The notes under the pieces: generated by a model
Databases searched by the model: none
What the model was told of the DNA's origin: nothing
What the model saw: the letters and a program-made list of their open reading frames with translations, nothing else
Part shown: in pieces, positions 8,256-31,142 of the stretch
Numbering within the stretch: position 1 is the stretch's first letter
Layout: the number at the start of each line of letters is the position of its first letter
NCBI GenBank assembly: GCA_017517705.1
Contig: JAFWYM010000030.1
Coordinates: 1 to 64,000 of the forward strand
Direction of reading: 5' to 3'
Length of the DNA stretch: 64,000 nucleotides
From: Alistipes sp.
GTDB taxonomy: Bacteria; Bacteroidota; Bacteroidia; Bacteroidales; Rikenellaceae
Position numbers and translations under genes: made by a program

Positions 8256-8288
8256 AATCCGTCAATCTGAGAAGATTTGACGGATTTG
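8256..8288 (-). terminator. Terminator of the large TIR/RyR operon
   Basis: A perfect 11-bp stem (AAATCCGTCAA with TTGACGGATTT, 11-base loop) lies 21 bases past the stop of the last RyR gene, followed on the minus strand by a short T-rich stretch. No equally strong hairpin is seen between genes of the operon upstream. Confidence 0.65.
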
Positions 8289-8309
8289 ATATTGGTTCTT
8301 ATGTATTCG

Positions 8310-8600
8310 CTACTCTTTTATAATCTTGAAACCTAATTTGCTAATGAGTTTTAATGTCCCAATAGCAGTATCTCGGTCGTACTCCTTCTCGGCCTCGGGA
8401 AGTTCCTCATAAGGTATCAAACAAGGATGTTGTTTCAAAGCATCACTACGCTCTTCTCCATAAGTCCATCCTTGCTCTATGCGACTTTGCGCCCACACCT
8501 CGTGAACATTCTTCGCCATATCCTCAACAAGAGTCATTAAATCATCTGGAAGCAATATATCATTTGTGTAAATTGGCTTTGGTGTGTAATTTGTTTTCAT
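8310..8600 (-). CDS. Stand-alone RyR-domain protein
   Basis: The 96-residue protein is almost entirely one RyR domain: HEVWAQSRIEQGWTYG at about 32-48, then HPCLIPYEEL and EKEYDRDTA. The W, GWxYG and PYxxLPxxEKxYDR positions are those of the ryanodine-receptor-type domain. Prokaryotic RyR domains have been predicted (Burroughs, Aravind and colleagues) to sense nucleotide-derived signals. It lies downstream of four TIR genes and has its own promoter-like sequence at 8,626-8,656, so it could be made in excess of its operon partners. Its C-terminal domain is clearly similar to that of the 26,352-27,350 protein. Confidence 0.85.
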   Translation of the reverse strand: MKTNYTPKPIYTNDILLPDDLMTLVEDMAKNVHEVWAQSRIEQGWTYGEERSDALKQHPCLIPYEELPEAEKEYDRDTAIGTLKLISKLGFKIIKE

Positions 8601-8625
8601 TATTGTTTCTGTTTTAAGTTTATAC

Positions 8626-8656
8626 CAAATATATTAGAGAAGAATATGAGTTTCAA
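8626..8656 (-). promoter_or_regulatory. Internal promoter for the RyR gene
   Basis: On the minus strand a TTGA (8,653-8,656) and a TATATTTG -7 box (8,626-8,633) are separated by exactly 19 bases, the Bacteroidetes spacing. The RyR start codon lies 26 bases downstream. Confidence 0.5.
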
Positions 8657-8699
8657 TCTATCAGTACTAATATAGTATAAAATATCTAACACAACATCT

Positions 8700-11396
8700 T
8701 TAGTCTAAATAGTAATCATGCATTTCATCTTGTGATAATTTTAATTTACTAAATCTATTCATGACAGGTTTATACACTTCATTTATTCTAGGGAGTTTAA
8801 ATTTCCACTTGTTGACAACAATATAATTCTCATCAGGAGTCAAACAAAAGTTTTTTTCAAATAGAGACTGTTTAAAATTTGGCATATAGTCCAACATATT
8901 GAACGAATAAAGAAAAGATAAAGTCATGGCCGAATATTCAGCAATAGTATAGTCCGTTTTCAATACTAATATAGAGCAATTGTCTGGATTATAGATTATA
9001 GACTGACCTTCACATGCTATATCTATTTTTTTTATCAACTTCATACTTTTTATATTAACTAAGGCCAAGTGAGCGCTACTTAATAATACAGCACATAAGT
9101 TTTTCCCACAATTAATTACTTCAATTACACCGTGATCCATTAGCAATTCACCAATTTTCTTTCTCAACTTAATAGACCAAAGAACAATATCACCACCCTT
9201 ACTGATTGAAAGAAGTATTTTTTTATCTTTTAAAAATAATAATGAATCTGCTGCCGAATGAGTACCTAGTTTGTATTCTTTTTCATGCTTAATATCTAGC
9301 ACCTTAATATCAGATGAAGGAAAAGTTAAGATGCTTATAAGACCATCATCTAATAGTCGCATATCTTGTAGTATATTGCCATCACTCTCAGAAAATGGAA
9401 AGTCGTTTGTAGTAGCTGGTGTAGGAAAATCAAAATTATATTTATATACGACATTTTTAACATTAACATCCCACCCTATTATTAGTCCACTCCTGTATGA
9501 AAGATATAGAATTTTTTCTTTATTATCATAATCATAATTCACCAAAGACCCATTTGATATTGAAGGAATACGGTATTTACGTAACTTCTTTTTATAATCC
9601 CATATTTCGATTTCTGTGGAATACCCATTGTTTAGAATAATAGAACAAATGACTAGCGAGGAATCCCGAATAAATTCACATCGCTTGAATGAATTATGTG
9701 AATGAAGAAACAATGATTTACGTTGTAAATCTCCTTTTTTAAGAAACATAATATTTCCACCACCGAAAGAACCGGCTAACATATTAGGTGGCAATTTTAC
9801 TAAACTATCAAATTTAGGGATAGAGTAAGTGTATTTAAAAGAAGAAGTAACAATAGAATGAATATCAATTTCATGAAAAGGGAAAGCCCGATAACCATAC
9901 CAATCAACATCTAAATTTGTTAAATCTAAATCTTTATTCGAACTTAATTCTTTATCATTATTTGCACATACCAGTTCTGTAGCTTTATTTATATCATAAC
10001 TTTGAAGAAATGAATTGGTTGAATAAAAAAATAAAACGGAATCATCTTCTGAGAAGAACAAGAATGGATTTGTAATGTCAGTGGACAAATCTTCGAATTG
10101 AAAGGAAGCTATTTTATTACCTTTTATATCAAACAATGTCAATTCTGCACTCACATCTAATACGGCGATTTGACTCATTGTGTGGTTCATCACTGCTCTA
10201 ATTGGGAAAAAGAACTCTTCTGTTGAATCAAATATCTCATAATATGTTGAATCTTCGATATTATAAATCAAAACGCTAGTTTCAGCTGTTAACACTAAAT
10301 ATTTATCATCACTACTATAAGAAATACTCTTTAAAGGCAAACCCTGTTCTAACTTAAACTCCTCTTTTTTTATTATTTTCCATGTATTTATATCCCGTAT
10401 CTCAAATCCGATATCGGTAGACACTGCGAAGTACCGCCCATTGTGGCTGAAATCTATATTGGTACAATTTAATGAGGGTATGCATACACCATCCTTGACT
10501 CTAATAAAATCTATTGAGTCTTGCCATTCGGATTTAATTCCTAAATAATCACCTTCATTACTAACATATAATTCAAAATGATGATTAAAAATCGGATTTC
10601 TCCATCTATGAACTGGTGTGTAATATAAGGAAAAAGCGAAAATATCGTATATTTCTCTTAATACACCAGCAACTTCTGCTACATATGCTCTATTAAGTCT
10701 GTTTAAATTAGTAGGAAACACAAACGAACATAATCTAGCAGCCAAGTAAACGTTTCCCTCGGCTATTTTGCTCCTTGCTATTGAAGCAATGACTCGTCCT
10801 TGATAAATTTGTAAAGACCTCTTTTCTTCTTTTAGTTTTCGTTTTTGAGCATTCTCCTCTCGTCGATGTCTCTGCCATAGTATATCAAAACGAATATCGA
10901 ACATACGGGCAATCACTTTAATTGCAGCTGCATCACGCCCCATCTCGTTAATATTCGCCGCAAGAAGTTCGTTACAACCTAAGAGGTTGAGGAGAGCTTT
11001 TGGATAGCACTCAGTTGCATCATTAGAGAATGGTTTACCCTCAATAACAAAAGGAATGATATGATCTGCACGACCAAGGTCAATAAACGTTTGTGCCTCC
11101 TTACATACCCATGGACTTTTGGCACTGCGAGGTGAGCAGATTACTATAAGCCATTCAGAACCACGTAAGGCTTTATTAATTTCTTCCGACAATAAGCCTG
11201 GATTTAGGTCTGTTACATCTCGGAATGTTGGACGGATATATTTCGGTAAATCAGGTCGTCCATTCAGATTTGTTGGGAATCTATAATACTCCAACTTATG
11301 CTGTAGCCATTTGGCCCATTTCTCGTCCTCTCGCTTATAGCTTATAAACGCATAGTATTCTTTAGTTCCCCTCATCACATAATCTGTAAAATACAA
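8700..11396 (-). CDS. TIR domain fused to beta-propeller repeats
   Basis: The 898-residue protein opens with a TIR domain (about residues 14-165): YAFISYKRED, a TFRD loop, LIVICSPRS and SPWVCKEAQ, where E100 is the position of the catalytic glutamate of NAD-cleaving TIR proteins. A charged linker (about 180-200, EENAQKRKLKEEKRS) leads into a long WD40/beta-propeller-like region (about 270-870), recognisable from recurring strand units such as IDFSHNGRYFAV and WDVNVKNVVYKY. Propellers often act as ligand or partner sensors that release the effector. It is 12 bases downstream of the kinase-TIR gene. Family and active-site residue are seen; NADase activity and trigger are inferred. Confidence 0.8.
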   Translation of the reverse strand: MYFTDYVMRGTKEYYAFISYKREDEKWAKWLQHKLEYYRFPTNLNGRPDLPKYIRPTFRDVTDLNPGLLSEEINKALRGSEWLIVICSPRSAKSPWVCKEAQTFIDLGRADHIIPFVIEGKPFSNDATECYPKALLNLLGCNELLAANINEMGRDAAAIKVIARMFDIRFDILWQRHRREENAQKRKLKEEKRSLQIYQGRVIASIARSKIAEGNVYLAARLCSFVFPTNLNRLNRAYVAEVAGVLREIYDIFAFSLYYTPVHRWRNPIFNHHFELYVSNEGDYLGIKSEWQDSIDFIRVKDGVCIPSLNCTNIDFSHNGRYFAVSTDIGFEIRDINTWKIIKKEEFKLEQGLPLKSISYSSDDKYLVLTAETSVLIYNIEDSTYYEIFDSTEEFFFPIRAVMNHTMSQIAVLDVSAELTLFDIKGNKIASFQFEDLSTDITNPFLFFSEDDSVLFFYSTNSFLQSYDINKATELVCANNDKELSSNKDLDLTNLDVDWYGYRAFPFHEIDIHSIVTSSFKYTYSIPKFDSLVKLPPNMLAGSFGGGNIMFLKKGDLQRKSLFLHSHNSFKRCEFIRDSSLVICSIILNNGYSTEIEIWDYKKKLRKYRIPSISNGSLVNYDYDNKEKILYLSYRSGLIIGWDVNVKNVVYKYNFDFPTPATTNDFPFSESDGNILQDMRLLDDGLISILTFPSSDIKVLDIKHEKEYKLGTHSAADSLLFLKDKKILLSISKGGDIVLWSIKLRKKIGELLMDHGVIEVINCGKNLCAVLLSSAHLALVNIKSMKLIKKIDIACEGQSIIYNPDNCSILVLKTDYTIAEYSAMTLSFLYSFNMLDYMPNFKQSLFEKNFCLTPDENYIVVNKWKFKLPRINEVYKPVMNRFSKLKLSQDEMHDYYLD

Positions 11397-11408
11397 TATT
11401 ATTTAGAA

Positions 11409-14400
11409 TTATATCACTTCAAAATTATATACTTCTTTCATGTCACTTGGCAGGTCAGCACGAGGCTCTATGCTGATAGGACAGATTTTAATCGTGGCAT
11501 CTCTTTGACTGAGTTGGGGATATGCTCGGAGCAATGCTCGACCTTTTTCTTTTGCAACATAATCACTTGCGGCAGCATTTTTTGACCAACATAGGACAAA
11601 CAAGTCTGATGAATCAATATAATCGAAGATCTTTTCCTCATAGACATCTCCAGGAGCAAGGCTATCTCTATCATAAAAATAATCCACACCCTGCGCTTTA
11701 TATGCTAATGCCAATAGTTTTATCTGTTGAGCATCTTGATGAGCGTATGAGATGAAAATTCTATTGAAGCGATGAGATAGAATTTCTGGATTAAGGTTGC
11801 GTGGAAATTCAACTATTTGAGTTAAGAATCTCATTTCACCAATCATAGCTCCATTGACGAATAAGTTGGCTTCACAACTCAATTCCTCCACATCAATGTC
11901 TTTTGGAACAAAGTAATCAAATGAACATTTTGTAAAAGAACCTTGCCATATTATAGATTTACGTTCGGACATCAAGCGAGTTTCCCCATAAACATTGAAC
12001 TCTACATCAACCTTATCACCTTTCTTTAACTTAAGTGATAGCGGTATATAGTCTCTTCTTTCTGCGTTTTTATCAGATTCTTGAGCGAGCGATTTAACTT
12101 TTTCTGACTCCTCATACAAATGCAGATACACCTGTACCTGTAAATGAGATTTTCGTTTCACTTCTGCTGGTGCAAATATAGAAGAATAGACTTCATTATA
12201 TTTGTTTTGCTCCTTTAAAACTGCAAGTTCTTTTTCAAGATTACTTTTCTGTTGTATGAATCCTTCAATCTGTTTCTCACATATTTGTGCTTGAGCCTTC
12301 TTCTCCTCTAATTCTTTATCACATTCTAATAGCTTTTCTTTAGCTTCATCAGATGAAGTAGATGTAGAACCAGCAAGTGCCCCTGCAATTCCCACAAAAC
12401 CTCCAATTATTGAAGACAAAAATCCTCCTACTGCACTTCTAATCATACCTGAAGAATTCATTAAGAGAATTTCTATCTCATTTTTTTTCTTTTTCAATTC
12501 GTCAATCTGACTCTGAACAGATTTTAATTGTTCCTGTTGTCGAGTCAAACATGTAATAGTCTTTTCGTATTCGTTTTTTAACTTCTTTAATCTTGTATTA
12601 TCAGACAAAGAACTTAATGGAACGAAAGACTCATAGCTATAACTAGAAATGGTTACGTTATGAATTGACTCAATTACAAATGCATCCATCCAATGCTCAT
12701 CAACATTACGCGAACTGTCGCTTTCAACAATATTGGCATCATGTGATGGAATGGGAAGTGATATAGAATTTGCTAAAGACTCTATTTCATCGACTCTAAA
12801 GTCAGAGCACCAATCATTATCAGAATAATCGTTCGATTCTGCAGATTCACAATCCACAATCCATCCTCCTCTGGTTCTGGCAAATTCCTCGACATCATCA
12901 ACTGATATAATTGAATCATCAAATACAATGTCGCTAGTATCGGCAGAAGTAGGCAAAGACATTGCAGTTGTACACATTTGCTCAACTTCGTCTCCCATTG
13001 CATACTGATGGTAGGCATCGCGAGAAATATAATGCCAACGAGCCTCAAGTCTATCCTCATTTCCTGCATTTAGTTCTAAATCTAAACTATAACCTTTGCG
13101 GTGAATGATATAATCACCATCTTCACAGTAAAAGGAGAGCCTTTCCAACTCATATATAAATTCAGCAACCCTGCTTACTCTTTCTTTTGGCAATGATGCA
13201 GATACTTTATTGAAGAACTTATCAAGTTTCGTCTTAATATGCGGTGGGAGATTGATGCAACCTGTAGGTGTAGGTAAGTTATCCCCATTCATCCGTTTCT
13301 GCAATGCTTCATCTTCACAACCTTGCACCAAAAATGCAGGGCGAAGGTTATTTAAGATAAAGTACATTACCATTGATACAGAGTACACTGCAGAGGCTTC
13401 TGTAAAAATACCCGACATAAAGGTTTCTGGAGCCATAAACCACTGATTACCTACAGCCTCTTTTAGATCGAACTTATTTGTACAACTTCCAAAATCACCC
13501 AATTTGAATGTGCCATCATTTGAACGATAGATATTGCAAACATGAATGTCACGATATAGTACTCCTCGCTCTTGACACTCTTTCCAAGCCTTCGCAACAT
13601 CTGTGGCCATTTTTATTAGTCCTTTCAAAGAAAGCTCATAGTAATGACTACACAGCAAATCAACAATAGGAGTAGACTGCTCAATTGCTACTATATTTTG
13701 AGTAATATCTGTATATTGCTCATTGCATTGCAGTAGGTGTTGACAGCCTTTTATTTGCTGTATATAATGGTATTCTTCTAAGCTTGTAGTTTTGCTGTTT
13801 GGACGAAATACCTTGAGTACTGTATTTTTATCTTTTGAACATAAATAGATATCTGCAGAGCTACCGATATGAGACAAAAGGCATCCCTTTATATCTTCAC
13901 GTTGTTTCAGTTTTATTAGTGCTAATGAATTTATCAAAGCCTTTGACCAAGAATTTGAGCAGTCTGGCAAAGTCGTAATATCTTCAATGGTTCTTGTCCT
14001 TAAGATCTCATCTGTAGAAACACATAAGAAATTATAGTTAACACCATCAATCTTGAATAACTCTTGAATTCCTGATTTGATTGCGACATTATCTAATATA
14101 CTATCTCCAAAACATGCATCAAAGTGATAATATTCATTGCTAACCTTAACAAGATTCCAACAATGCCTGCCATCATCTTTGTCGTTGTGTAATCGCCCAA
14201 ATACTAAACGAGATTCTATGCCTAACAGATTAAATAAATATTGAGCAGCTTTTGCATATCCGGTACAGACAGAATTTCTACGAACAAATACGCTGTAGAT
14301 GCTTTGATTGTAAGAGGAGTTTGCGTTATAGGTGCAATAAGTTACCAACCATTTATATACATAGGCTACTTGTTCTTGCCGAGTCAAATTCTTGGCATAT

Positions 14401-14672
14401 TCAATGCAAAAGTCATTTTCAATCACATCATTAATGCTCTGCTGAATCGTTTTTACCCTCTCAGCAGAAAATGTATATTGAAAGTGTATGGTAGAACTTG
14501 CCTCGTCATAATGATACTGATGTGCGAACCAAAATATATCTGGATTATCTCGCATTATCCAGCGGATTGCATTGCGAATTTCAGATTCTGGTATTGTATT
14601 ATCAATATGCAGCACTTTTTCTAACTGTCTGATACCATTTCTTATATTATTAAACTTCATATTATAGTTCAT
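11409..14672 (-). CDS. Transglutaminase-like / protein kinase / coiled-coil / TIR protein
   Basis: This 1,087-residue protein joins at least four parts. Residues about 95-195 are a transglutaminase-like fold with a complete triad: C136 in SVCTGYA, H170 in GRHCWN and D185 in HFDACFGD. Residues about 265-530 are a Ser/Thr-type kinase domain with TVLKVF (K287), YRDIHVCN (D375, N380), LGDFG (D393) and APE (414-416), so it looks active. Residues about 710-870 are coiled coil interrupted near 745-775 by a glycine-rich hydrophobic stretch (GGFLSSIIGGFVGIAGALAG). A beta-rich linker leads to a C-terminal TIR domain (970-1,087) with E1042 at the catalytic position. MNYNM offers two starts; the first is used here. 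Likely a signal-transducing effector; substrate unknown. Confidence 0.82.
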   Translation of the reverse strand: MNYNMKFNNIRNGIRQLEKVLHIDNTIPESEIRNAIRWIMRDNPDIFWFAHQYHYDEASSTIHFQYTFSAERVKTIQQSINDVIENDFCIEYAKNLTRQEQVAYVYKWLVTYCTYNANSSYNQSIYSVFVRRNSVCTGYAKAAQYLFNLLGIESRLVFGRLHNDKDDGRHCWNLVKVSNEYYHFDACFGDSILDNVAIKSGIQELFKIDGVNYNFLCVSTDEILRTRTIEDITTLPDCSNSWSKALINSLALIKLKQREDIKGCLLSHIGSSADIYLCSKDKNTVLKVFRPNSKTTSLEEYHYIQQIKGCQHLLQCNEQYTDITQNIVAIEQSTPIVDLLCSHYYELSLKGLIKMATDVAKAWKECQERGVLYRDIHVCNIYRSNDGTFKLGDFGSCTNKFDLKEAVGNQWFMAPETFMSGIFTEASAVYSVSMVMYFILNNLRPAFLVQGCEDEALQKRMNGDNLPTPTGCINLPPHIKTKLDKFFNKVSASLPKERVSRVAEFIYELERLSFYCEDGDYIIHRKGYSLDLELNAGNEDRLEARWHYISRDAYHQYAMGDEVEQMCTTAMSLPTSADTSDIVFDDSIISVDDVEEFARTRGGWIVDCESAESNDYSDNDWCSDFRVDEIESLANSISLPIPSHDANIVESDSSRNVDEHWMDAFVIESIHNVTISSYSYESFVPLSSLSDNTRLKKLKNEYEKTITCLTRQQEQLKSVQSQIDELKKKKNEIEILLMNSSGMIRSAVGGFLSSIIGGFVGIAGALAGSTSTSSDEAKEKLLECDKELEEKKAQAQICEKQIEGFIQQKSNLEKELAVLKEQNKYNEVYSSIFAPAEVKRKSHLQVQVYLHLYEESEKVKSLAQESDKNAERRDYIPLSLKLKKGDKVDVEFNVYGETRLMSERKSIIWQGSFTKCSFDYFVPKDIDVEELSCEANLFVNGAMIGEMRFLTQIVEFPRNLNPEILSHRFNRIFISYAHQDAQQIKLLALAYKAQGVDYFYDRDSLAPGDVYEEKIFDYIDSSDLFVLCWSKNAAASDYVAKEKGRALLRAYPQLSQRDATIKICPISIEPRADLPSDMKEVYNFEVI

Positions 14673-14814: not shown

Positions 14815-17800
14815 CTAGAATTTGCTTTCATCCCATTTTCTTTTCTTTTCTATAATTTCACTAAGTGTATTAATATTAATACCCCATTCTTTAAATCTTA
14901 ATCCAATCTGTCCAGCGGGGAAATTAAATTCTATAATATCTCCTAGACCTTTAAGTAACGAACCTTCGAGGGTTACAGGTAAAAGAACAAGATGTTTTGA
15001 CTGTTTTGCAGAATCTGCAATTATGTCTCCCAATTTTTCAGATTCATCTCCAAAACACCAATTATCATATTGCAAAATTATATATGTATTATGCAGACCT
15101 TGTTTCTTGCCATATCCATTGCCTTCAATGTTGCCCAAAACACAATCGAATATTGCACCGATTTGTCTAGGATTGAATGTTGTTGTTTTATTTCCTTGTT
15201 TCTTGAATTTTGTTAGCCATTTTTTTAGAAGTTTTACAAAACGCAGTTTGGGTAACACCTGATTGTTTTCCATATCTCTCCATATTCGAAACTGTTCGCC
15301 AGTCATATCTGTAATTATGTCACAGAAACAATAGCCATAATCATTTAAATGGCGGTCATATTTCTCGTTCAAACTAACAAGACGAACCATAGAACCATCA
15401 TCAGAGTGTAGAATCTCTGTACCATAATCTCCAACACTGTCAGCTATTGGTCTATTGTCTATATCAAGGAATTTATAAAAACGTAATTTGCCATCTTCAT
15501 AGAGTTCGTGTTTGATTGCGTAACCACATGCATTATTGGTGTAATTACCATCTTTGCCAAGACTTATAATTCGCCTCCAATTGTTTTCTGTGTCAATCGC
15601 ATAACCATACACTTTATTCTCATCTTCTAAAGATTGTGTATTATTTCTGTCTTTGTCATAATAGAATATTCTATGCATTCCGTTTTTTGGATTAAAACAT
15701 TCTTCTCGATAAGCATATCCATGTATATTCGTCGTTATTTCTCCATTCTCATTCAAATAACCTACTATTTTGTTATCTTCACTAGGATATTCATAGCTTA
15801 AACCATAGCACCCTAATAGGCTTGATATAGTTATAGGATTACCCTCGATTGAATAATACATACGCTTAATTTCCTTTCCTTCTTCATTCTTATATGAATG
15901 AATTATACCATAACCTAATTGATTATTATGAGGTTGTTCGTTCTCGTCAAGACACGTGATTATAGTTAACTGTTTCTCGTCATCATATTCGTAACTTAGT
16001 CCATAATCACCATCTTTGTCTGACAATGGCAATTTATTTGAATCCAGATACAAATTCCTGATTGTTCGGCCTTTATTATCATCTTCAAAATATTCGAATA
16101 CAGAACCATTATCATTATGTATAATATGACCTTGACCATCTTCATAATGAATATAATAAGCGCACTCTCTTTTTTCAGAGTCAATAAATTCACGTATACC
16201 TATAAGTCCATGAATATTACCATCAATAGTTACATCTTTTTGAGCAACAAGACGTCCGAAATTATCATACCAAGAGATTCGACGTGCAAAACCGTCTTTA
16301 TTGTTGCATGCTTCCCCCTTTGAATCTATAAATGATACTATTTTTTTGTTTTCCTCATCATAATACTCACAAATTTCACCGCTGTAGCCCCTTTCAAGTT
16401 CTTGATATTCGTTTCTATTATTGATGTATGACTGTTCCGTAATACGATTTTTACTGTCTTTCATAGTTTTAATACGAATTCTAAGTTCTCCATTAATATT
16501 ATACAAAGATGTGATTTCCTGATTATTATCGTCATATTCCCATGTTGTATAACTATTTCCGTCTGCATCTCCTACTAAATTACCTCTGGCATCTTTAAAA
16601 TATTCATTCAACGGTCTTCCCTTATTATCAAATGTTGTTTCCACAATCATACATGGTACTAATCCCAATCCTGGATCAGCTCGATGTGGTCGATGAATTA
16701 GTATCTGTTCTTTGCGTGAATTTAAAACTAGCATTCTTTCTAAATGCCCTTGATTGATAATTTCCTTCTCTAGGTGTACATAAACCCAATTATCGTTTGC
16801 ATGAGGAACACCTTCTATGTTATAATTGATTTGGACTAAACCTGACGAATTGTTAGTTTCGATAATGAAAGCAACACCGTTGTTGTCTTCAATCATGTTC
16901 CCATCTGCATCTAAATTGATACGTTTGGTTGTTTCAACATCTAAATACTCTACTTTTACGCCGAATACACCGCTATTACTTTTCATTGGTGTACCATCAA
17001 CATCATAGTATAATTGCTTAACAACTCTCTGTTTGTCATCTTCCCATGTTCTTACGGCATAGTAGCCATCATTACACTTCTTGAATTGTTTATACTCGTT
17101 GATAAATATTTGCAAAATTGGGAGATCGTCTTCTCCATTCAAAGAGTATTCCAATCCTTCTACATCAAAATCTTCATTTTTACTTATCCCATTTTCAGAC
17201 AAATAGTATTCGCGTATAATATGCGTGCCTTCTTTGTTGTAGTCAAATCTTTTTCCTAAGCCAAATAATCCATTCTTATTGTAGTATTTAACACTTTGCA
17301 ATCTATTCTGCTCATCATAACTCCATAATTGTATAGAATCATTATTTTCAGAATCAATAATATCGTCGTTTTTGTCTAGAGAGAACAATTCTGTTATTTG
17401 TCTTTTCTCATTAATCTTTGCGACAATTTTTTTAACACCATCTTTATCCTCAATACATGAACCATGTTCATCAACATTACACATTGTAATAATATTATTG
17501 AGAAAATCAATCTGGTCAATATTTCCGTATGTACCTGAAGGGGTTTTCCACGGTTCCCCGTTTTGGTCTAGAAAGTAATCCGATGTTGGCAACCCATTGT
17601 CATCATACACCTTATAATCAGTAACATAACCATCATTGTCCGCCATTAAACCTCCATTGGCATCTATGTTACTTATCTTTATTAGTCTGAACGTATCAAT
17701 ATCATATGTCATGCGCTTACCGTATACTCCAGAAACTATTGTTGTGGGCTTTCCATTTTCATCTACAAAATAACGTTCAATTTCATTTCCATTCTTATCA

Positions 17801-22267: not shown

Positions 22268-22269
22268 AA

Positions 22270-22776: not shown

Positions 22777-22781
22777 AGTTC

Positions 22782-23039
22782 TTATTTGTTAATGTTTTGA
22801 ATAGAATGAAAATTGTACACTGCGTACAACACGCTTGACTCTACAAGCAAATTTTTGATCTCTGCAAGTTGCTCTTCATTGTATTTTGCCTCCATATCGT
22901 GAAGCATTGCTACAACCTTATCAGACTGTGCCTTAATCTCCTCTTCGGTGATTACTCCATCTTCCATTATAGTCTTGAAAGATACATTGTTGGCGACCAT
23001 TTCGTCAATGTTCAAGATTCCTTCTTCGTTGAAAAACAT
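22782..23039 (-). CDS. Small acidic helical protein
   Basis: An 85-residue acidic protein (FNEEGILNIDEM near the start, then EDGVITEEEIKAQ, an EF-hand-like but not canonical pattern) with a mainly helical C-terminal half. No family recognised. It is part of a tight run of small genes with zinc-ribbon and M48 proteins, so it may be an accessory factor of the same complex. Confidence 0.6.
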   Translation of the reverse strand: MFFNEEGILNIDEMVANNVSFKTIMEDGVITEEEIKAQSDKVVAMLHDMEAKYNEEQLAEIKNLLVESSVLYAVYNFHSIQNINK

Positions 23040-23077
23040 AACTCTAAAATTTAAGTACCAATTTATCGTGCAAATAG

Positions 23078-23308
23078 TTAAAAAACATCTATTTCGAATT
23101 TTCGTCTACAGCTATCATTCAAGCAAATATATTTCTTTGTTTTGCATATACTTTCATGAACATTCTTCGCAGGATATTTTGCATCACCCCTCATAAATGG
23201 GGATAATAATGTAGCTGTTATACCACTTGCGGCACCAGCAATAATTCGCTTGCCCAAGTTTAGGCTTTTAATATCTTTACTACCACAATACGGACATTTT
23301 GTTGCCAT
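23078..23308 (-). CDS. Small zinc-ribbon protein
   Basis: The protein starts best at MATKCPYCGS (23,308), preceded by GGTGAG; an earlier ATG at 23,344 would overlap the M48 gene. About 76 residues: CPYC near the N terminus pairs with CLNDSC near the C terminus to form a zinc ribbon, separated by a glycine/alanine-rich hydrophobic segment (IIAGAASGITATLL) that may sit in the membrane. It follows the M48 gene by 19 bases. Confidence 0.65.
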   Translation of the reverse strand: MATKCPYCGSKDIKSLNLGKRIIAGAASGITATLLSPFMRGDAKYPAKNVHESICKTKKYICLNDSCRRKFEIDVF

Positions 23309-23327
23309 ACTCACCTTATTTTTTAGT

Positions 23328-24206
23328 TTACTGTTTTGTTCCACAATGCTTGCAATAAGCCCAATCAGCGCATACAGCTTTATTGCATTTAGGACATCTC
23401 TTGCCAGATGCTTCTGCTTTCAGATTCTGCATTAGATTCTTATACTGCGGGCTTTCTCCCCATTTGAGGATTTCGCGAACTCGAACTGCACTGAATGGAT
23501 GGGATTGACCGATTATGATAGAGAGTTGCAATGCTTTGTTCCACAAGCCATCATTCTTTATCTTCTCGTATTTATCTGCTTGCAGCGCCCATTCTTGCAT
23601 GTTCAAATTGCTTGTTATAGACTTCGGGCCACCTGATAAGCGAGCCATCGAGCGAGCAACAATCTCGGGTGAGGTTATGATACTACCACATCTATCGCAA
23701 GATAACTCACTCTTTCTGTACCAATACAAGATTGCGTACTGAATTGGAACTGTAAGTGAACCTAAAATTCCCATGGCATCAGCACCACTGAGTATATACT
23801 GGGCAATGCTATGATATAGCACATGGCGACAAAGAATATGACCACATTCGTGTGCAATTACAGCATCCAACTCTTCATCATTGAGTAATTCAACCAATCC
23901 CGATGTGATAGTGATGAAAATCTTAGTATCACCAAAAGTCCATGCATTTGGTACAGGATCCATTTGTAAGTAGAACTCAGGCTCAGGGATACCTAACTTC
24001 TCACAGATTGGAGGGAGGTGATTGTAAAGTTTGGGTAATTGAGTAGGAGAAAGGCGAATAGCTGTCGCCATATTCATACCATACCGCAATTGTTCAAATC
24101 CCAGAGCCATTATCTTCTTGACAAGAGCTGGGAATCCTGGGATACTTTCCAACTGACGCAATGCTGCTGCGTCCTCTGAATGAATAAATTCTGCTGGTTT
24201 AATCAT
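23328..24206 (-). CDS. M48-family zinc metalloprotease with zinc ribbon
   Basis: The 292-residue protein has the HEXXH zinc site (HECGH, 119-123) inside DAVIAHECGH, the third ligand glutamate in SELSCD (E167), and a hydrophobic segment between them (about 135-162). That is the Ste24/HtpX (M48) arrangement. A C-terminal zinc ribbon (about 268-290, RCPKC and CKHCG) is added, as in two other proteins of this operon. M48 proteases usually act at the membrane on misfolded or modified proteins. Located 12 bases after the TIR-LRR gene. It may be an effector or processing enzyme; the target is unknown. Confidence 0.85.
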   Translation of the reverse strand: MIKPAEFIHSEDAAALRQLESIPGFPALVKKIMALGFEQLRYGMNMATAIRLSPTQLPKLYNHLPPICEKLGIPEPEFYLQMDPVPNAWTFGDTKIFITITSGLVELLNDEELDAVIAHECGHILCRHVLYHSIAQYILSGADAMGILGSLTVPIQYAILYWYRKSELSCDRCGSIITSPEIVARSMARLSGGPKSITSNLNMQEWALQADKYEKIKNDGLWNKALQLSIIIGQSHPFSAVRVREILKWGESPQYKNLMQNLKAEASGKRCPKCNKAVCADWAYCKHCGTKQ

Positions 24207-24218
24207 AATACAAAATCC

Positions 24219-26216
24219 TTAAAAAGTGCATCCATAAATGTTATACTCCTTCCACTTTTGTGCATCTTTATATCGTGTTAGTGCCACATTTTCCACATAG
24301 ATAACAGTCGCTCTATCCAGTCCTAGCCCTTGAGAGGTATAGGGTGCGACTTTGGGGGGAGTGACTGGTTTGCAATATAAATTTGTAAGGCTACTGCACC
24401 CTTCAAACACATCTGCGCCAATTGAAATCACGCTATCAGGTATTTTTATATTTGTTAGGATACTGCAACCGCTGAAAACAAAACTGCCAATTTCTACTAT
24501 ACTATCACCCATAATTACACTTGCAAGTCTACTACAATTTCCAAATGCACTATCGCATATCGTGGTTACGTTATTACCAATAATAACACTTCTAAGATTG
24601 CAACAATTAAAGAATGCGCCACCGCCTATTACAGTTACGCTATCACCAATAGTTACGCTTGTTAGGTTGCTACAGCTGTGAAATGCGCCAACAGATATCA
24701 AATTTACGCTATTACAAATTGTTACGTTTACAAGACTGCTGCAACCATAAAAAGTCCTCGGGCCAATTTCAACTACATTGTCAGGAATAAGCAAGTCGAC
24801 AACCAACTCGTCATTTAAATATAGTTTGGCATTATTGTACAAAGGATTACCTGGGTAGTAACCGGGGAAATCTATCCCGCACCAAGCTGATAAATTGGTA
24901 ATATGTACCTCTTGGAGATTACCGCAACCATAAAAGGCAGAACCACCAATCTTCGTTATACTTTCAGGTATAGCAATGCTTGTAAGGTATCTGCAGTATT
25001 CGAATGCTTCTTCTCCAATTATTATTACACTATTGGGAATTGTTATACTTGCAAGTCCGCAACCATAAAAAGCTGAACCACCAATCTTGGTCACATAATT
25101 AGGAATAGTATATGTGGTTAATCCTGCAGAAGCAAATGCTTTCAACTCACCATCAACAATCAGACAACGATTATCAGCTGATGCCCATTTGCCATAAAAT
25201 GCAGATAGGTTCTCACAACAGTTGAACGCGCCATCACCAAACTGAATTACATTATCAGGTATAGTAATGCTTGTAAGACTAAGACAATCACAAAATGCCC
25301 TTTCTTCAATTGTTTTTACACTGCTGGGAATTGTTATACTTATAAGGTTTCGACATCCCATAAAGGCATCTCTCCCAATTCTAGCAATCTCCTCTTTGCA
25401 AGCAATCACCCCCTTACCATTCTCATATGTATGATTGAGAATTTCTATATCCCAATACTTTTTGCTCAAATTTAGCTTCTGACCATCCGAGGTTATATAC
25501 TCTATTCTCTTTCTCTTGTCAAGCAATTTCCGCTCAAGAGACACCTTCACTACACGCTGACAATCAGTGACATCAACTATCTCATCAGAGAATATAGTGT
25601 TATCAATAGTGCAAATAAATTTCAATGCATTCTCACCCTTCGGCAGGCTCAATTCGTAAAACTCATTCTTTAAAGCTATTCCAATCTTTTGCCCAAACAG
25701 ATATATTTCACAGTCCGTATCAGGATATATACGTGTCATCACCAATGATTCGCCTTCATTGGTGATATTGCTGTTAGGTTGGCTCTCCAAAAACATCCGC
25801 TTCAATTTGTCATAGAACGCATCAAAGTAATAGCGGTCGTAGACAGGGCCATTCCTTCTGGCAACATACGCGATATCATTGGGTAAATTGTCCGGAAAAC
25901 TGTTAATACCTGCAAGGAAAATAGGTATTATATTTTTATTATGCTTTAATGCGTGTGCTAACTCGCACCTGAGCCAATCCTTACAACGGTCAAAAGACTC
26001 GTCTAACGTTCTGTCGAAGCAATGAGCATCAACAATAAGTATAAAATCGGTACAATCCTCAATACGGGACAAAAGTTGAATGTCAAAATCTCCGTTTCTT
26101 AATGTGTCAATATCAAAACTTACTTTGTATCCATCTCTAACAAGCAAGTCATTGAGGTGTTTCGCTGTATCGTAACCACCATCTCGTCTATAACTTATGA
26201 AAACATCGTATTTCAT
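24219..26216 (-). CDS. TIR domain fused to BspA-type leucine-rich repeats
   Basis: The 665-residue protein starts with a TIR domain (about 1-140): YDVFISYRRD, FDIDTL, DFILIVDAHCF and WLRCELAHAL with E85 at the catalytic position. A beta-rich region (about 150-235) resembling PEGA-type surface domains follows. Residues about 265-640 are BspA-like (LRR_5) leucine-rich repeats of about 23 residues: units such as SITIPSSVKTIEERAFCDC, repeated some 13-14 times. LRRs probably recognise a partner and TIR is the output. No signal peptide precedes the TIR, so it is cytosolic, unlike most BspA proteins. A GGAGTG ribosome-binding site precedes the start. Confidence 0.85.
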   Translation of the reverse strand: MKYDVFISYRRDGGYDTAKHLNDLLVRDGYKVSFDIDTLRNGDFDIQLLSRIEDCTDFILIVDAHCFDRTLDESFDRCKDWLRCELAHALKHNKNIIPIFLAGINSFPDNLPNDIAYVARRNGPVYDRYYFDAFYDKLKRMFLESQPNSNITNEGESLVMTRIYPDTDCEIYLFGQKIGIALKNEFYELSLPKGENALKFICTIDNTIFSDEIVDVTDCQRVVKVSLERKLLDKRKRIEYITSDGQKLNLSKKYWDIEILNHTYENGKGVIACKEEIARIGRDAFMGCRNLISITIPSSVKTIEERAFCDCLSLTSITIPDNVIQFGDGAFNCCENLSAFYGKWASADNRCLIVDGELKAFASAGLTTYTIPNYVTKIGGSAFYGCGLASITIPNSVIIIGEEAFEYCRYLTSIAIPESITKIGGSAFYGCGNLQEVHITNLSAWCGIDFPGYYPGNPLYNNAKLYLNDELVVDLLIPDNVVEIGPRTFYGCSSLVNVTICNSVNLISVGAFHSCSNLTSVTIGDSVTVIGGGAFFNCCNLRSVIIGNNVTTICDSAFGNCSRLASVIMGDSIVEIGSFVFSGCSILTNIKIPDSVISIGADVFEGCSSLTNLYCKPVTPPKVAPYTSQGLGLDRATVIYVENVALTRYKDAQKWKEYNIYGCTF

Positions 26217-26237
26217 AACCGTTCACTCCCAATCCAT

Positions 26238-26351: not shown

Positions 26352-27350
26352 TTATAATTCTGTTTCTTCTCGCTTAATTAGATCATAACCGAGCTTCTTC
26401 AAAAGTTTTATGGTTTTCATTGCCATTTCTCGGTCATGCTCTTTCTCGCCTTCTGGTAGTTGAGAGTAGGGAACCATATCTGGCGTTTGTTTTAACTGGT
26501 CATCACGCTGAGGTCCATAAGTCCAGCCCTCTGCTTGACGGTTCTCTGCCCAGATTTCGTGAGCATTCTCTGCGATAGCTTCACGCAACTCGGTCAAATC
26601 TTCGGTTAATTCTACATCCGATAAGTCTATTGATTTCGGAGTATAGGTTTTCATACTGTTTGAAGTTATAGTTACTAAATAATTTTTCGAATCATTCCAT
26701 GCATCTTTGAATTGCTCCAAAGGATAAATATCCTCTACATTTGAAGAGTTAGGATCGTATATGGTTATTGTATCATTGTTTGGAATGAGAGATAATACTA
26801 CAACCGTATGGTCAGGTATTTGACCAATCACGAGATCTTCAATTATTTCATCAGCTTTATTACCCAATAACTCTCCGCCATCAACTGCTACAATTACACT
26901 CTCATCATCTTTCAGAGCAGTTGCAATATCTTCTATTGAAGCATTATATTGACGAGTTACGATTAATCCTTTATTCTCCAAATGCCTGCCGACATTGTGA
27001 AGTGCAGTGCCATTCTCTTTTTGCCAGCCGTTTTGAATGGCATTCTGGAGGAGTTGTTCCTCGTCAAATTCGATATTTAGTTTGCAAAGGATATATTTTT
27101 CACACTCCAAGCAGCAATAATTCTCCTCGTTGCAGGTGGCAGCCATTGCCGTCATCGGAATAAATTCACACTCTTGGGGTGTCATACCCAATTCCGCATC
27201 TACTGATTGAGAAATATGTATCAATTCTCTCAATTCAGCATCTTCAGTGAGAGCAGTGATTATTTCTTTGCTCTCCTGTGCAGTAGTATTGCCATCAAGG
27301 AACGCTGCCAATACCTCTGCCGAGATGTTATTTACTGATTTCTTTTTCAT
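26352..27350 (-). CDS. Anti-sigma-like / C39-like peptidase / RyR protein
   Basis: The 332-residue protein has three parts. Residues 1-70 are helical and begin ISAEVLAAFLDG, a pattern of anti-sigma-type N termini. Residues about 75-235 resemble a C39/papain-like peptidase: CCLECEK (C80 or C83), PDHTVVV (H181) and IYDPN (D199), spaced as a Cys-His-Asp triad. Residues about 255-325 are an RyR domain (HEIWAENRQAEGWTYG, VPYSQLPEGEKEHDRE). The start overlaps the sigma-factor gene by 23 bases, the usual layout of a sigma/anti-sigma pair. A model: ligand binding to RyR changes the hold on, or cleaves, the sigma partner. Domains are seen; the mechanism is inference. Confidence 0.75.
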   Translation of the reverse strand: MKKKSVNNISAEVLAAFLDGNTTAQESKEIITALTEDAELRELIHISQSVDAELGMTPQECEFIPMTAMAATCNEENYCCLECEKYILCKLNIEFDEEQLLQNAIQNGWQKENGTALHNVGRHLENKGLIVTRQYNASIEDIATALKDDESVIVAVDGGELLGNKADEIIEDLVIGQIPDHTVVVLSLIPNNDTITIYDPNSSNVEDIYPLEQFKDAWNDSKNYLVTITSNSMKTYTPKSIDLSDVELTEDLTELREAIAENAHEIWAENRQAEGWTYGPQRDDQLKQTPDMVPYSQLPEGEKEHDREMAMKTIKLLKKLGYDLIKREETEL

Positions 27351-27900
27351 ATTTCTCTACTTCTTTCAGTGCTATTGCTGTCAACGCTGCAATAGCACGC
27401 TTCTTAATGTTATACAAATTATCGACGTTGGTCCGTAGTTCTTGTGCCACAACTTTGGGCTCAGCCTCCTGCATAACCAATCTTCTGATGACATAAACAT
27501 AGCGTCTGTTAGGCATTAGGGGAAACAGACGCTCTATATCCATCTTTGCCGTCAGCTTCTTTTCTCCATCAACAAACATCTTTTGTACAACACTATCTAA
27601 AAGAGCGTCCTTAGACTCATTATCTATCATACTATCACGCTTCGCTATAAAGTAGCGAATGGCAATTACTTTCATCCACTGATAGATGGTGCTTCGACCT
27701 TGAAACTGTCTCAAACGATATGCATCATTCTCCATAAGGTGCAGATAGAATTCATTTACAAACTCATCATAATCCACCTCATATGAGAATACATAGCGAA
27801 TAATGCTCAAGAAAAGCGGACGGCAGTTCCCAAAGAAGAACTGCTGAGTCACTCGCTCATCCCGAGCAATCAAGGATTCAATTATTTGTTGGTCAGTCAT
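27328..27900 (-). CDS. ECF-type sigma factor
   Basis: About 190 residues from MTDQQII (27,900). An earlier ATG at 27,951 would lie inside the channel gene; the chosen start overlaps that gene's stop as TAATG, implying translational coupling. Region 2 is visible as FSYEVDYDEFVNEFYLHLME and RSTIYQWMKVIAIRYFIAKR. Region 4 is the C-terminal helix-turn-helix (RRLVMQEAEPKVVAQEL ... NIKKRAI). It probably directs RNA polymerase to a small regulon, perhaps this operon, under control of the overlapping anti-sigma-like protein. Confidence 0.8.
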   Translation of the reverse strand: MTDQQIIESLIARDERVTQQFFFGNCRPLFLSIIRYVFSYEVDYDEFVNEFYLHLMENDAYRLRQFQGRSTIYQWMKVIAIRYFIAKRDSMIDNESKDALLDSVVQKMFVDGEKKLTAKMDIERLFPLMPNRRYVYVIRRLVMQEAEPKVVAQELRTNVDNLYNIKKRAIAALTAIALKEVEKYEKEISK

Positions 27901-30470
27901 TAGCTTTTTTTCATTTTTTCTCGTAAGAACGGCATAGCCAAAGTAAAACAAATGTCATAGTTCTTATCATCCATAGGCAAACATTCAAATGGGCAAATAT
28001 TAGGATGCACCTTCATTGGCCCATCTTTGTAAAAGCCCTTTACTTTCTTGACTTTAAAACTTTCTTCCCTCCAGTCATAATAGATGTCCTTTTCATTTAT
28101 ACCTTCCTGAATTTTTACCAATTCTTCATTTTTTACTTTCAGATACTCCCTAACTATTTCTATTTCTTCTTTATTGAGAGTATGGTCTTCAAGAGGTCTG
28201 TAACCCATGAGAAGTTTTTCAACATTCCACCTATTGTGCTCGACCTTTGCAAAGAGTTCTTTAATGTTAGTATCATCCAATTTTGAAAAGTTTAATCCCA
28301 ATGAACGCATCTTAAATTCAATAGTGTTAACCTGATATATATTAGACCATATAGCCCACAATTTACCCAAGGATAAATCTATTTCTGACAAGACTGCTTC
28401 TTCTACATTTTTCCTATCCCAATGATTCCAATAGCAGGTGTTTTCATTATCAGACTTTTGTCTAAATTTGTTCACTAAGGCATCCTTTGCTTTATAGAAA
28501 TTACTGCAATACCAAATGGCTTCATTTTCCAATAATTTAGCATCAAATCCTAGACTAAGCATGCCAAATGGCTTTAGCTTTCTGTATGTTGTCATTTCCC
28601 AAATATGTTTAGCATCGTCAGCCCCCTTATTAATATCTATAAGCAATTCTCCACTTTGAGGTTGATAAACCCATATATCATTGGCTTTTTGTATTGCTAC
28701 TTTTGGGAGATATAGTGCAGCAGCCAAAGATTGGTGTGGTTGCGGCAAGCAGACTGCAATTGTTACAATCTCTGTATTCTTTTCATTAAAGCAAGATTCG
28801 ATATATTCTCTGTTTTCTTTCGACTCAACGCCACCACTCCTAAACTCCCATTCTATGTCTAAAAAGTTTTTTGCAAAGTATTGGTATTCATTACATGTTG
28901 GTGCATACCAATTATGCTCTTTGCCATCTACATCCGTCCACTTGCAAAGTTTAAATAGGTCTGGAAATCTTCCCATAAAGAAATCAGATTCCTCGCGGGC
29001 ATTTTTATCAATAAAGGTAATCTTAGTGCGTTTAGAATTATCTCTGACAAAATTTGGGAAATGAGCTAGATGAGCAGTTTCTATCGCCATTGCAGTGCCC
29101 ATTTTCGACATCCCGATAATAATTATATGTGCAATTTTATCAGAATCATACGAGATTCCATCCCCATCTATATTATTATATGTTATAGTTATATTGGTTT
29201 TGTCTGGAATAGTAATGTTTCCATTAACAAGAACGGTTTGTGCCCAATTTTCATAAGGGCTGAATGGTATAAAGGACAATAAATCTTTGCCATCTGGAGT
29301 TTTTATAATTCTGGATTGAGACGATGATTGAAAAGCCGCAAAAGATGTTTGGTATTCAAACATAACATAACATCTAATGGGTTCTTTGAATGAATTGCCC
29401 CCTTGCAATAATTGATTGATTAAATCAAAACATTGCATATTGACAGTGTCATGATAAGGCTCGAAATCATCCGTACGAGTTTGTTCTCCTAATATATAAA
29501 CTTCTATTGCTTGTTGCAAGCAGAGTTCCATCAGCTCCGTTTCAGAAGTACGACTGCCATAATATATTATTATATGCTGCTGCTGTTGTTCCGTTAACGT
29601 AGAGAACAACTCTCGTCTAAATTCTTCCACATCACGAGTTGTTTGGATTAATATGTATGGCATAACACCTTTGTTCGGCATAATCTGCCGTACAATGCCA
29701 AATGTCATATCATTGCCACCAATGATGACATAGTGTTTATACTTGTGTAGAAATCCTCGATATTTAACCTCGCCCTTCAGCCATTTCTCTTTTCTGGAAT
29801 CTATCCAGCCAATTATAGAAGATACTAACAATCCGTTTAACAGAAAAACTCCAAGTATTGCAATTAGAGCCGACCATCCTCGTCCACTTTGAGATGTGGT
29901 CATGTGCTGATTGCCTGGATCTATGAAATGATAATATACAGTCCAAAATATTGAAGTATCTTCTTGCTTTGAAATTATAGTTTTAGGCAATTTGTTTTTT
30001 TGTATTATGATTGAATCACTAAGTTCAAGATTGTGAGAGTTTAGAAATACCGAATCCGTAAAAAGTTGACATTTTGCAATACCTAGAGTGTCTGTTTCTG
30101 CATTGTTATATGAGTACAAATTTTCGTCATATACTAGATTTTGGGGAGAATACTTTGAATTTTTAGGACAGGAATTGTACAACAAAAAACAGCTAGCAAT
30201 TATTGATGGGAATAATAAAACCAATGCAACAACTTTAGCTAAATAATTACCATTTACTAAATGCCAATCAAATTTAGGTCTGTTAAAGAAAAATATATAA
30301 ACTGAAGTAGCGAAATAGTAAAAACCTATTGTTCCAGCGATAATGCATAAAGTATTGTTAAGACATTCGTGTTTAGTTGGTGTTAAGTTGCAAATCAATG
30401 CAGATAAAGCAATGATAATTGCCAAGATGTCAAGTAAACACCATATGTTTTTATTATTTATCTTCTTCAT
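27900..30470 (-). CDS. Castor/Pollux-like channel with Rossmann (RCK-like) and RyR domains
   Basis: The 856-residue protein has three N-terminal membrane helices (about 11-30, 41-62, 77-98), a loop, then a pore-like segment FIDPGNQH (182-189) and a fourth helix (198-222). The DPGN pattern before the last helix resembles the filter region of Castor/Pollux-type ion channels. Two Rossmann, TrkA-N/RCK-like domains follow (HYVIIGGNDMTFG at about 246 and HIIIIGMSKMGTA near 445). The C-terminal 120 residues are an RyR domain (EHNRWNVEKLLMGY, HPNICPFECLP). RCK and RyR domains would gate the channel by ligand. By analogy with eukaryotic ryanodine receptors, a cyclic ADP-ribose-type ligand from TIR enzymes is an attractive but unproven idea. 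Confidence 0.78.
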   Translation of the reverse strand: MKKINNKNIWCLLDILAIIIALSALICNLTPTKHECLNNTLCIIAGTIGFYYFATSVYIFFFNRPKFDWHLVNGNYLAKVVALVLLFPSIIASCFLLYNSCPKNSKYSPQNLVYDENLYSYNNAETDTLGIAKCQLFTDSVFLNSHNLELSDSIIIQKNKLPKTIISKQEDTSIFWTVYYHFIDPGNQHMTTSQSGRGWSALIAILGVFLLNGLLVSSIIGWIDSRKEKWLKGEVKYRGFLHKYKHYVIIGGNDMTFGIVRQIMPNKGVMPYILIQTTRDVEEFRRELFSTLTEQQQQHIIIYYGSRTSETELMELCLQQAIEVYILGEQTRTDDFEPYHDTVNMQCFDLINQLLQGGNSFKEPIRCYVMFEYQTSFAAFQSSSQSRIIKTPDGKDLLSFIPFSPYENWAQTVLVNGNITIPDKTNITITYNNIDGDGISYDSDKIAHIIIIGMSKMGTAMAIETAHLAHFPNFVRDNSKRTKITFIDKNAREESDFFMGRFPDLFKLCKWTDVDGKEHNWYAPTCNEYQYFAKNFLDIEWEFRSGGVESKENREYIESCFNEKNTEIVTIAVCLPQPHQSLAAALYLPKVAIQKANDIWVYQPQSGELLIDINKGADDAKHIWEMTTYRKLKPFGMLSLGFDAKLLENEAIWYCSNFYKAKDALVNKFRQKSDNENTCYWNHWDRKNVEEAVLSEIDLSLGKLWAIWSNIYQVNTIEFKMRSLGLNFSKLDDTNIKELFAKVEHNRWNVEKLLMGYRPLEDHTLNKEEIEIVREYLKVKNEELVKIQEGINEKDIYYDWREESFKVKKVKGFYKDGPMKVHPNICPFECLPMDDKNYDICFTLAMPFLREKMKKS

Positions 30471-30496
30471 AATCTTTACTTAAAAAATCACGATAT

Positions 30497-31078
30497 CTAA
30501 ATCAATTCCAAATTAATTTTCTCAATACTTACACATGCATACCCCAATCCATCTATTCTGATGGCAACGATAGGCTTATTTTCTTCAGCATAACTTAATT
30601 CTCCTTCAAGACCTTTCATCGGGCCTCTTACAAAGCGAACTCTATCTCCAACTTTAAGATTTTCCACAATTGAGACTTTTGCATCTGCATTGTGCAAAAG
30701 GAACTTTAGCTTTTCGATTTGTTCGTCAGGTATTGGAGTGGTTAATTCTTTAGAACCTGGATAAGTGATAAACTTAAGAATGAATGATAGTCTCCGAAAA
30801 TCGTCTTCCTCATCTTGGGAAAGACGGACGAATACAACCATAGGAATGACAACCCTATCTATCTTCTTTTTTCGGTCACTCCATTGATGTTCTTCCTGCT
30901 GAACTGGTACATAATTTGCTATACCCATCTTGTCAAGTTTGGCTGCAACTTTTTTTTCACAGTTCATCTGAACGAGAGCTGCGACCCAGCGTTTTTGGCA
31001 CGCTTCGCGGTCGTTTGTCCCATTGACAAACGAGCCTTTACTTGTACAATTAACACCCTCCATTGCTATCTTATTCAT
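30497..31078 (-). CDS. UpxY-like NusG paralogue (antiterminator)
   Basis: The 193-residue protein carries an NGN domain (about 30-125: RWVAALVQMNCEKKVAAKLDK and VVFVRLSQDEED) and a C-terminal KOW domain (about 140-190: GDRVRFVRGPMKGLEGEL). This is the Bacteroidales UpxY family. UpxY proteins are encoded first in capsule operons and act as operon-specific processive antiterminators. Here the gene heads a roughly 22-kb operon of TIR, RyR and protease genes, not a capsule locus. It probably allows RNA polymerase to read the long, A+T-rich transcript. A -7 box lies at 31,135-31,142. Confidence 0.85.
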   Translation of the reverse strand: MNKIAMEGVNCTSKGSFVNGTNDREACQKRWVAALVQMNCEKKVAAKLDKMGIANYVPVQQEEHQWSDRKKKIDRVVIPMVVFVRLSQDEEDDFRRLSFILKFITYPGSKELTTPIPDEQIEKLKFLLHNADAKVSIVENLKVGDRVRFVRGPMKGLEGELSYAEENKPIVAIRIDGLGYACVSIEKINLELI

Positions 31079-31134
31079 AGTAAATAGAGTCTATTTTGGA
31101 TATGTATTCTATCGAAGAACACTTTACAGATATA

Positions 31135-31142
31135 CAAATTTA
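31135..31142 (-). promoter_or_regulatory. Putative promoter of the TIR/RyR operon
   Basis: TAAATTTG on the minus strand matches the TAnnTTTG -7 element, about 57 bases before the UpxY-like start codon. The -33 element is poor at the expected distance, which fits a promoter needing an alternative sigma factor or activator. Confidence 0.35.

Follow-up and report, generated by a model that had tools for sequence, protein, structure and literature searches.

A single-strand Alistipes operon of four TIR and three RyR-domain proteins, apparently a bacterial immune circuit of an undescribed kind

Gene content and gene order were analyzed in a 64,000-nucleotide stretch of DNA from Alistipes sp. (contig JAFWYM010000030.1; hereafter the window), which carries an operon encoding four proteins with TIR domains and three proteins with RyR domains. 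Domains were called by Pfam and NCBIfam profile searches, and a match described as below cut-off fell under the curated threshold of its model. Reading of the open reading frames (ORFs) gave 15 genes on the minus strand, running from 31078 to 8310, on an incomplete genome of 1.99 Mb. A preliminary description, made from the letters alone, had given about 16 genes with mostly tiny gaps or overlaps; the tight spacing stands, with a gene count of 15 and with four gaps that are larger (the 14 intergene gaps are, in order, 26, −52, −23, 135, 12, −17, 38, 5, 58, 208, 4, 142, 12, and 99 bp). The same description had the operon begin with an antiterminator gene and end at a terminator, and both ends were recovered on the minus strand, as were all genes and signals assigned to the operon below. 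The first gene (30497..31078) encodes a UpxY/NusG-type transcription antiterminator (NF033644, 2.2e-39). A TAnnTTTG box, which we take to be the Bacteroidota-type promoter consensus, lies 56 bp ahead of it (31135..31142), and the interval originally described ends on this box, at 31142. The intrinsic terminator stretch (8235..8300) folds at −17.8 kcal/mol (z −3.86) and went unreported by a simple consensus scan, whose loop limit is 8. The GC content is 35.5% in the operon, 40.9% in the left flank, and 51.9% in the right flank.

The RyR proteins had been described as stand-alone, C39-like-RyR, and channel-RyR proteins, and for the first two the domain lies well over the PF02026 cut-off. The free RyR-domain protein (8310..8600) matches PF02026 at 1.3e-34 and the structure 3nrt ("putative ryanodine receptor") at 3.4e-36, and the RyR domain of the C39 protein (26379..26645) matches PF02026 at 4.9e-31. 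The C-terminal RyR domain of the channel protein, which has an inserted loop (27936..28268), gave a Pfam match of 0.0029, below cut-off, and was assigned with the help of a family alignment in which the E-H-x-R-W, H, and D residues of the domain are kept in 18 of 18 members. According to the part of a 2026 preprint that was accessible, phage RyR domains bind or cleave 2'/3' cyclic ADP-ribose (cADPR) molecules, the products of Thoeris TIR proteins; one of them, RyDEP, contacts its ligand through H75, W78, H100, and D117 and hydrolysed the signals, and of eight further homologs six bound and none was seen hydrolysing (PMC13232231). H33, W36, H58, and D75 of the free RyR protein share the spacing of these RyDEP residues, an equivalence judged against the published residue numbers and not by aligning RyDEP itself. 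All four residues are likewise present in the channel RyR (H745, W748, H822, and D839), whose equivalents are invariant in the 18 aligned channels, and three of the four in the C39 RyR (H264, W267, and D306), which has T289 at the H100 position. After identical sequences were dropped, with relatives remaining, all four were found in 63 of 74 distinct short RyRs, and 77 C39-RyRs kept H75 in 76, W78 in 77, and D117 in 74. Two "Bacteriophage sp." records (L192 and L193; L and G numbers denote loci and genomes) with RyRs 64-68% identical were considered as phage captures and rejected, since their DNA reads as bacterial and one carries a RyR-channel pair. The other matches listed, out of 239 phage records, come from named phages and are distant RyRs.

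The channel-like protein (27900..30470; 856 amino acids [aa]) has four hydrophobic spans by hydropathy, at aa 9-27, 41-59, 80-98, and 202-220, followed by an RCK-type region and the RyR domain. Between spans 3 and 4, the codons for D-P-G-N (aa 184-187; 29910..29921) form a putative pore motif that, by alignment, resembles the filter of CASTOR; the 17 aligned relatives were chosen for having D-x-G-N, and conservation of the motif among them is by construction. The Slo-like_RCK profile matches 11 of the 18 channel relatives (best 9.7e-6), and the RCK identity of the window protein is taken from this family. A looser text search, in which some ORFs were cut by locus ends, found the HxxW pair in 86 of 92 channel-like ORFs and the following H...D tail in 68. 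A search with the single channel sequence of sequences with solved structures returned RyR chains only, weakly. In two genomes, the RCK-RyR part is a short gene of its own behind a separate gene of MscS type, as judged by Pfam in G003 and by clustering in G201. These pairs, together with the absence of D-x-G-N from many relatives, indicate that the membrane part is exchangeable.

Upstream of the C39 protein lies a gene for a divergent sigma factor resembling the extracytoplasmic function (ECF) type (27328..27951), which matches TIGR02937 at 2.2e-5, below cut-off; among the 12 members of its family, Pfam recognized Sigma70_r4_2 (3.4e-6) and Sigma70_r2 (0.0039) in one member each. The C39 protein itself (26352..27350; 332 aa) was assigned from profiles and a family alignment an anti-sigma-like N-terminus, a C39-like peptidase (C79, H181, and D199), and the RyR domain. 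C79 and H181 are kept in 58 of 58 family members and D199 in at least 90%. The C39_2 profile matches 34 of these 58 relatives (E up to 0.05), the RyR profile matches all 58, and the C39 identity of the window protein follows from its family. The oxyanion Gln usual in C39 peptidases was not seen in the C39-RyR sequences inspected, and the window protein has no membrane span by hydropathy. At the N-terminus, zf-HC2 matched 10 of 58 relatives weakly (E up to 0.05, best 0.0036). In a set of C39-RyR loci, comprising the best 80 of 112 matches to the family alignment, 76 had the full gene, and 74 of these are immediately preceded by the sigma gene, with a gap of −58 to +16 bp; of the two others, L163 begins at a contig start and L167 has a sigma ORF overlap just beyond the rule. 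The natural reading of this conserved adjacency is that a ligand would trigger release of the sigma factor. PrsW, the protease of the anti-sigma factor RsiW, was found in three related loci, in one of which (L058 7823-8875) it is fused to a RyR; this points the same way. Just past the stop of the C39-RyR gene (26216-26352), another frame reads as a zinc ribbon with two CxxC pairs; this ribbon is the C-terminus of the C39-RyR protein in L057 and L056, and the window copy has lost the ribbon or its frame. In L075 (5811-6539), a C39 protein without a RyR stands behind a sigma gene, and the locus has a free RyR and a channel.

All four proteins described as TIR-bearing match TIR_2, at 3.3e-9 to 2.6e-19, and their LRR, kinase, and SIR2 partners were confirmed; the WD40/propeller part of the fourth stayed below cut-offs. 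A TIR domain (25779-26216; TIR_2 3.3e-9) with BspA-type leucine-rich repeats (LRR_5 1.5e-83) is encoded at 24219..26216. The SIR2-like protein (19904..21262; SIR2_2 2.5e-7) has its TIR at 19907-20335 (2.6e-19). A transglutaminase-like domain (PF01841, 6.2e-13), a protein kinase (PF00069, 7.2e-17), a coiled coil, and a TIR (11412-11774; 7.6e-14) are combined in the product of 11409..14672, which matches the PD-T4-6 and MAD6 models. In the last (8700..11396), the TIR (10896-11348; 6.7e-14) is joined to beta-propeller-like repeats, for which the best model gave 9.8e-14. The conserved TIR Glu, the catalytic residue, is kept in all four and in 131 of the 134 locus TIRs with a letter at that position (135 aligned, repeats not removed).

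Co-occurrence of RyR and TIR was determined in genomes of the order, where 37 of 393 encode a RyR, and of the family, where 19 of 150 do; combined, these gave 55 RyR genomes. TIR_2 was found within 5 kb of a RyR in 27 of the 55, compared with 0.91 expected, and within 20 kb in 28, compared with 2.63 expected (random placement, rounded genome sizes). Because random placement makes a weak null, N6_Mtase served as a control in the same 55 genomes; an N6-methyltransferase lay within 20 kb of a RyR in at least one genome, by eye among the matches listed, versus the 28 for TIR. Within the family, TIR was present in 17 of 19 RyR genomes and in 20 of 131 without RyR (Fisher p 1.9e-10, ignoring relatedness), both counts being taken as from the same 150 genomes, as their shared handles suggest. 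The conserved co-occurrence of TIR and RyR genes, set beforehand as a test of the preliminary description, thus survived. The 76 C39-RyR loci, which were retrieved using the RyR part and have that domain by construction, contain a TIR in 46 cases, a channel-type ORF in 52 (profile-matching ORFs >200 aa), a short RyR in 31, and an M48 peptidase in 33, within flanks of at most 10 kb that are often cut by contig ends. A set of 41 regions holds 43 short RyR ORFs, two of these ORFs being similar to the RyR of C39 proteins; on the same strand and no more than 300 bp away, 21 of the 43 have a channel-type ORF and 12 have a TIR. The locus and genome sets overlap (L115 is the G313 contig) and are not independent.

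Across these loci, the RyR stays constant while the effectors vary: it is found with the channel and with C39, fused to PrsW, and, in L146, as a complete domain fused ahead of a channel. The TIR of the window TIR-LRR protein clusters with eight others bearing different tails (single linkage, at least 55% identity; some cut by locus ends), and no TIR-RyR fusion was found among the ORFs of loci L032-L191 and the window. Identity to a Muribaculaceae metagenome-assembled genome (MAG) is 84% for UpxY, which in L115 is placed ahead of the channel gene, 92% for the sigma factor, and 43% for the channel. The GC contrast of the operon and the 84% and 92% identities suggest horizontal transfer, and parts of the operon seem to have been exchanged between families. 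Related loci are present in many gut Bacteroidales MAGs, many labelled as ruminant, and Prevotella communis E15-14, an isolate whose genome is complete, combines TIR, channel, sigma, C39-RyR, and RyR genes in one locus (L175). In a sample of the phylum, RyR was found in 27 of 395 genomes, 20 of them in one family, where the usual form is of a different type, with two RyR copies in a frame of ~900 aa. One locus (L080 6169-8859) encodes an 896-aa protein with weak AAA/STAND-like matches and two RyR domains.

The remaining genes of the operon lie between the TIR and RyR genes. An nSTAND1 NTPase with a long C-terminus (14815..19899; PF20703, 1.1e-23) is 60% identical over its full length to a protein in L165, and an nSTAND gene follows the SIR2-TIR gene in several other loci too. 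Behind the TIR-LRR gene come an M48 metallopeptidase (23328..24206; PF01435, 3.4e-19) with a possible C-terminal zinc ribbon (models below cut-off), an 88-aa zinc-ribbon-like protein (23078..23344; Pfam 0.0053, below cut-off), an 85-aa conserved protein (G8, 22782..23039; 95% identical in L113), a 168-aa conserved protein (G9, 22270..22776; 91% identical in L125) with a C-terminal zinc ribbon (Zn_Ribbon_1, 4.9e-7), and a 246-aa conserved protein (21471..22211) with 11 ORFs in 8 loci, the window included. C-terminal zinc ribbons thus recur (22270-24206), over cut-off in the 168-aa protein and weakly in the M48 protein and some C39-RyR relatives, and may possibly provide shared docking or a substrate tag. 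Upstream of the operon is a broken-looking tyrosine recombinase (31319-32237), comprising a catalytic part and, in a different frame, a short ORF that we take to be its N-terminus. An imperfect inverted repeat (31054-31070 and 32345-32361; 17 nt, 82%) brackets this remnant and the promoter and may be due to chance. The possibility that a promoter between the integrase remnant and UpxY is invertible was weighed on this one imperfect pair; such pairs arise by chance. Farther out, a gene encoding a NUDIX and a winged-helix-like domain (33040-33732), presumably an NrtR-kind regulator, has a related gene near a RyR in G237.

The operon is real, its parts are conserved, and it is more than a cargo island. 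We hold with moderate confidence that it represents a mobile immune-type signalling system in which RyR readers are added to TIR second-messenger immunity. The four TIR enzymes probably make an alarm molecule that the three RyR proteins sense. Each TIR protein would have its own sensing part, namely the leucine-rich repeats, the beta-propeller, the kinase/transglutaminase, or SIR2 with its nSTAND partner. On detection of an invader, presumably a phage, the TIR would convert NAD to a small ADP-ribose-type signal, and the RyR domains would bind that single product. One RyR is predicted to gate the four-span RCK channel and so disturb the membrane. Triggered by its own RyR, the C39-like protease would release or degrade the anti-sigma portion of its polypeptide, and the freed neighboring sigma factor might then raise transcription, possibly of the operon itself; protection of the cell would be the putative result. 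Tandem RyR repeats pair in animals, and by analogy the free RyR is most likely a partner of the channel RyR domain. The full scheme, in which interchangeable TIR sensors feed one NAD-derived messenger to RyRs that in parallel open a CASTOR-like cation channel and switch on a sigma factor through an RyR-controlled protease/anti-sigma protein, is put forward tentatively.

That TIR proteins write and RyR proteins read a nucleotide signal, as the preliminary description proposed, is well motivated because phage RyRs bind or cleave TIR products and the window RyRs keep the residues involved, with the one exception in the C39 protein. The co-occurrence link also favors it, but several observations weigh against this reading. 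Eight of the 55 RyR genomes had neither a TIR_2 nor a ThsB_TIR match, and TIR was absent from the flank in 30 of 76 C39-RyR loci, including 16 of the 43 that span at least 18 kb. A plasmid of Priestia, which is outside Bacteroidota, carries a RyR gene immediately behind an adenylate/guanylate cyclase gene (L222 5509-7279); a Pycsar-effector-family gene is close by, and a TIR gene lies ~1.4 kb away on the other strand. The position of H100 is H in only 40 of 77 C39-RyRs, and phage RyRs with these residues can be hydrolases or sponges, so that the residues do not distinguish reading from removal (PMC13232231, accessible part). As to the outputs, D-x-G-N was present at the pore site in 17 of 44 channel relatives >600 aa and absent by eye from 27, and the channel family profile matched none of the sequences with solved structures in the Protein Data Bank. 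No convincing sigma-specific promoter motif was found in 94 upstream regions compared with 339 control regions; TAnnTTTG-like boxes were seen by eye at several sigma operons. UpxY gave two weak matches beyond L115 among the loci searched and is not a general part of the system.

Other explanations account for parts of these data. The free RyR could be an off-switch, comparable to the ring nucleases of type III CRISPR systems, that binds or hydrolyses the TIR product like RyDEP and limits leaky signalling. Short RyRs mostly retain all four H/W/H/D residues (63/74), among them the catalytic dyad of RyDEP, and some have a TIR within 300 bp (12/43), as this would predict; a channel-type ORF is nevertheless the commoner close neighbor (21/43), and the RyR fused ahead of the channel in L146 is a better fit to a partner or sensor. 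Hydrolysis was moreover reported for RyDEP itself and, in the accessible part of the preprint, for none of the eight further homologs, six of them binding (PMC13232231). We consider the off-switch rather unlikely overall, and ring-nuclease-like removal is a live alternative for the free RyR gene alone.

The RyRs might also respond to a different nucleotide (ADP-ribose, ATP, a cyclic mononucleotide, or the NAD level), with TIR genes brought nearby through shared defence islands. RyR-channel pairs do occur in genomes where no TIR was found, the Priestia RyR adjoins a cyclase and has the Pycsar-effector-family gene nearby, and animal R12 domains bind adenine ligands (PMC13232231, accessible part). 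Shared islands alone, however, fit poorly with the N6-methyltransferase control (at least one genome among the matches listed versus 28 for TIR) and with the 12 of the 43 short RyR genes that have a TIR gene on their strand no more than 300 bp away, and we judge this explanation unlikely. An island that serves regulation or antagonism and is not directed against phages, such as an envelope-stress circuit in which the sigma factor, the M48 and PrsW proteases, and the channel manage membrane damage, would account for the sigma/anti-sigma pair and M48 in the operon and for PrsW in three related loci. It appears improbable given several TIRs with swappable sensors, the kinase matching PD-T4-6/MAD6, and the nSTAND protein, which are typical of immune loci, and given the patchy presence of RyR (19 of 150 genomes of the family).

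If the TIR-RyR signalling system is as proposed, it would give TIR immunity a RyR reader domain and two outputs, an ion channel and transcription, and would suggest that the RyR sponges of phages may have arisen from host readers. It would also be a prokaryotic counterpart of the action of cADPR on ryanodine receptors and a small testable system for the long-disputed response of RyR domains to cADPR. We know of no nucleotide immune signal that drives sigma-factor transcription; the circuit, if true, would be the first.

The claim that no system of this composition has been described held in the open-access literature searched. Like Thoeris, the window has TIRs that keep the conserved Glu and presumably consume NAD to make a signal, and neighboring effectors with a nucleotide-binding domain; it differs in its RyR readers, its sigma branch, and the grouping of several differently sensing TIRs in a single operon. 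No ThsA-type effector was found: PADLOC matches of nine window proteins were to TIR-bearing or kinase models, a further defence-model scan gave only a weak mad8 match for a window protein, matches to NCBIfam Thoeris models were far below cut-off, and SLOG did not match the SIR2_2-TIR protein. The sigma gene overlaps or touches a gene with an anti-sigma-like N-terminus (weak zf-HC2), as in ECF sigma/anti-sigma pairs, whereas the putative inhibitor here includes a C39-like peptidase and a RyR domain and, in the window, lacks a membrane span. In the accessible part of its description, the channel CASTOR has four predicted transmembrane segments and the filter AD265S(A)GNHA (PMC6697748). The window channel appears to share with CASTOR/POLLUX/DMI1 four predicted transmembrane segments, a D-x-G-N motif, and an RCK-type soluble part; it differs in being bacterial, in its C-terminal RyR, in having P in place of S/A, and in lacking a sequence match to a solved channel. 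The window RyRs belong to the same PF02026 family as RyDEP (PMC13232231, accessible part) and have H/W/H/D at the RyDEP spacing; unlike RyDEP, they are chromosomal, are fused to or beside effectors, and adjoin TIRs rather than opposing them. Finally, set beside the R12 domain of the animal ryanodine receptor, the free protein shows close RyR homology, and the window RyR, unlike R12, is a small modular reader and not part of a giant channel.

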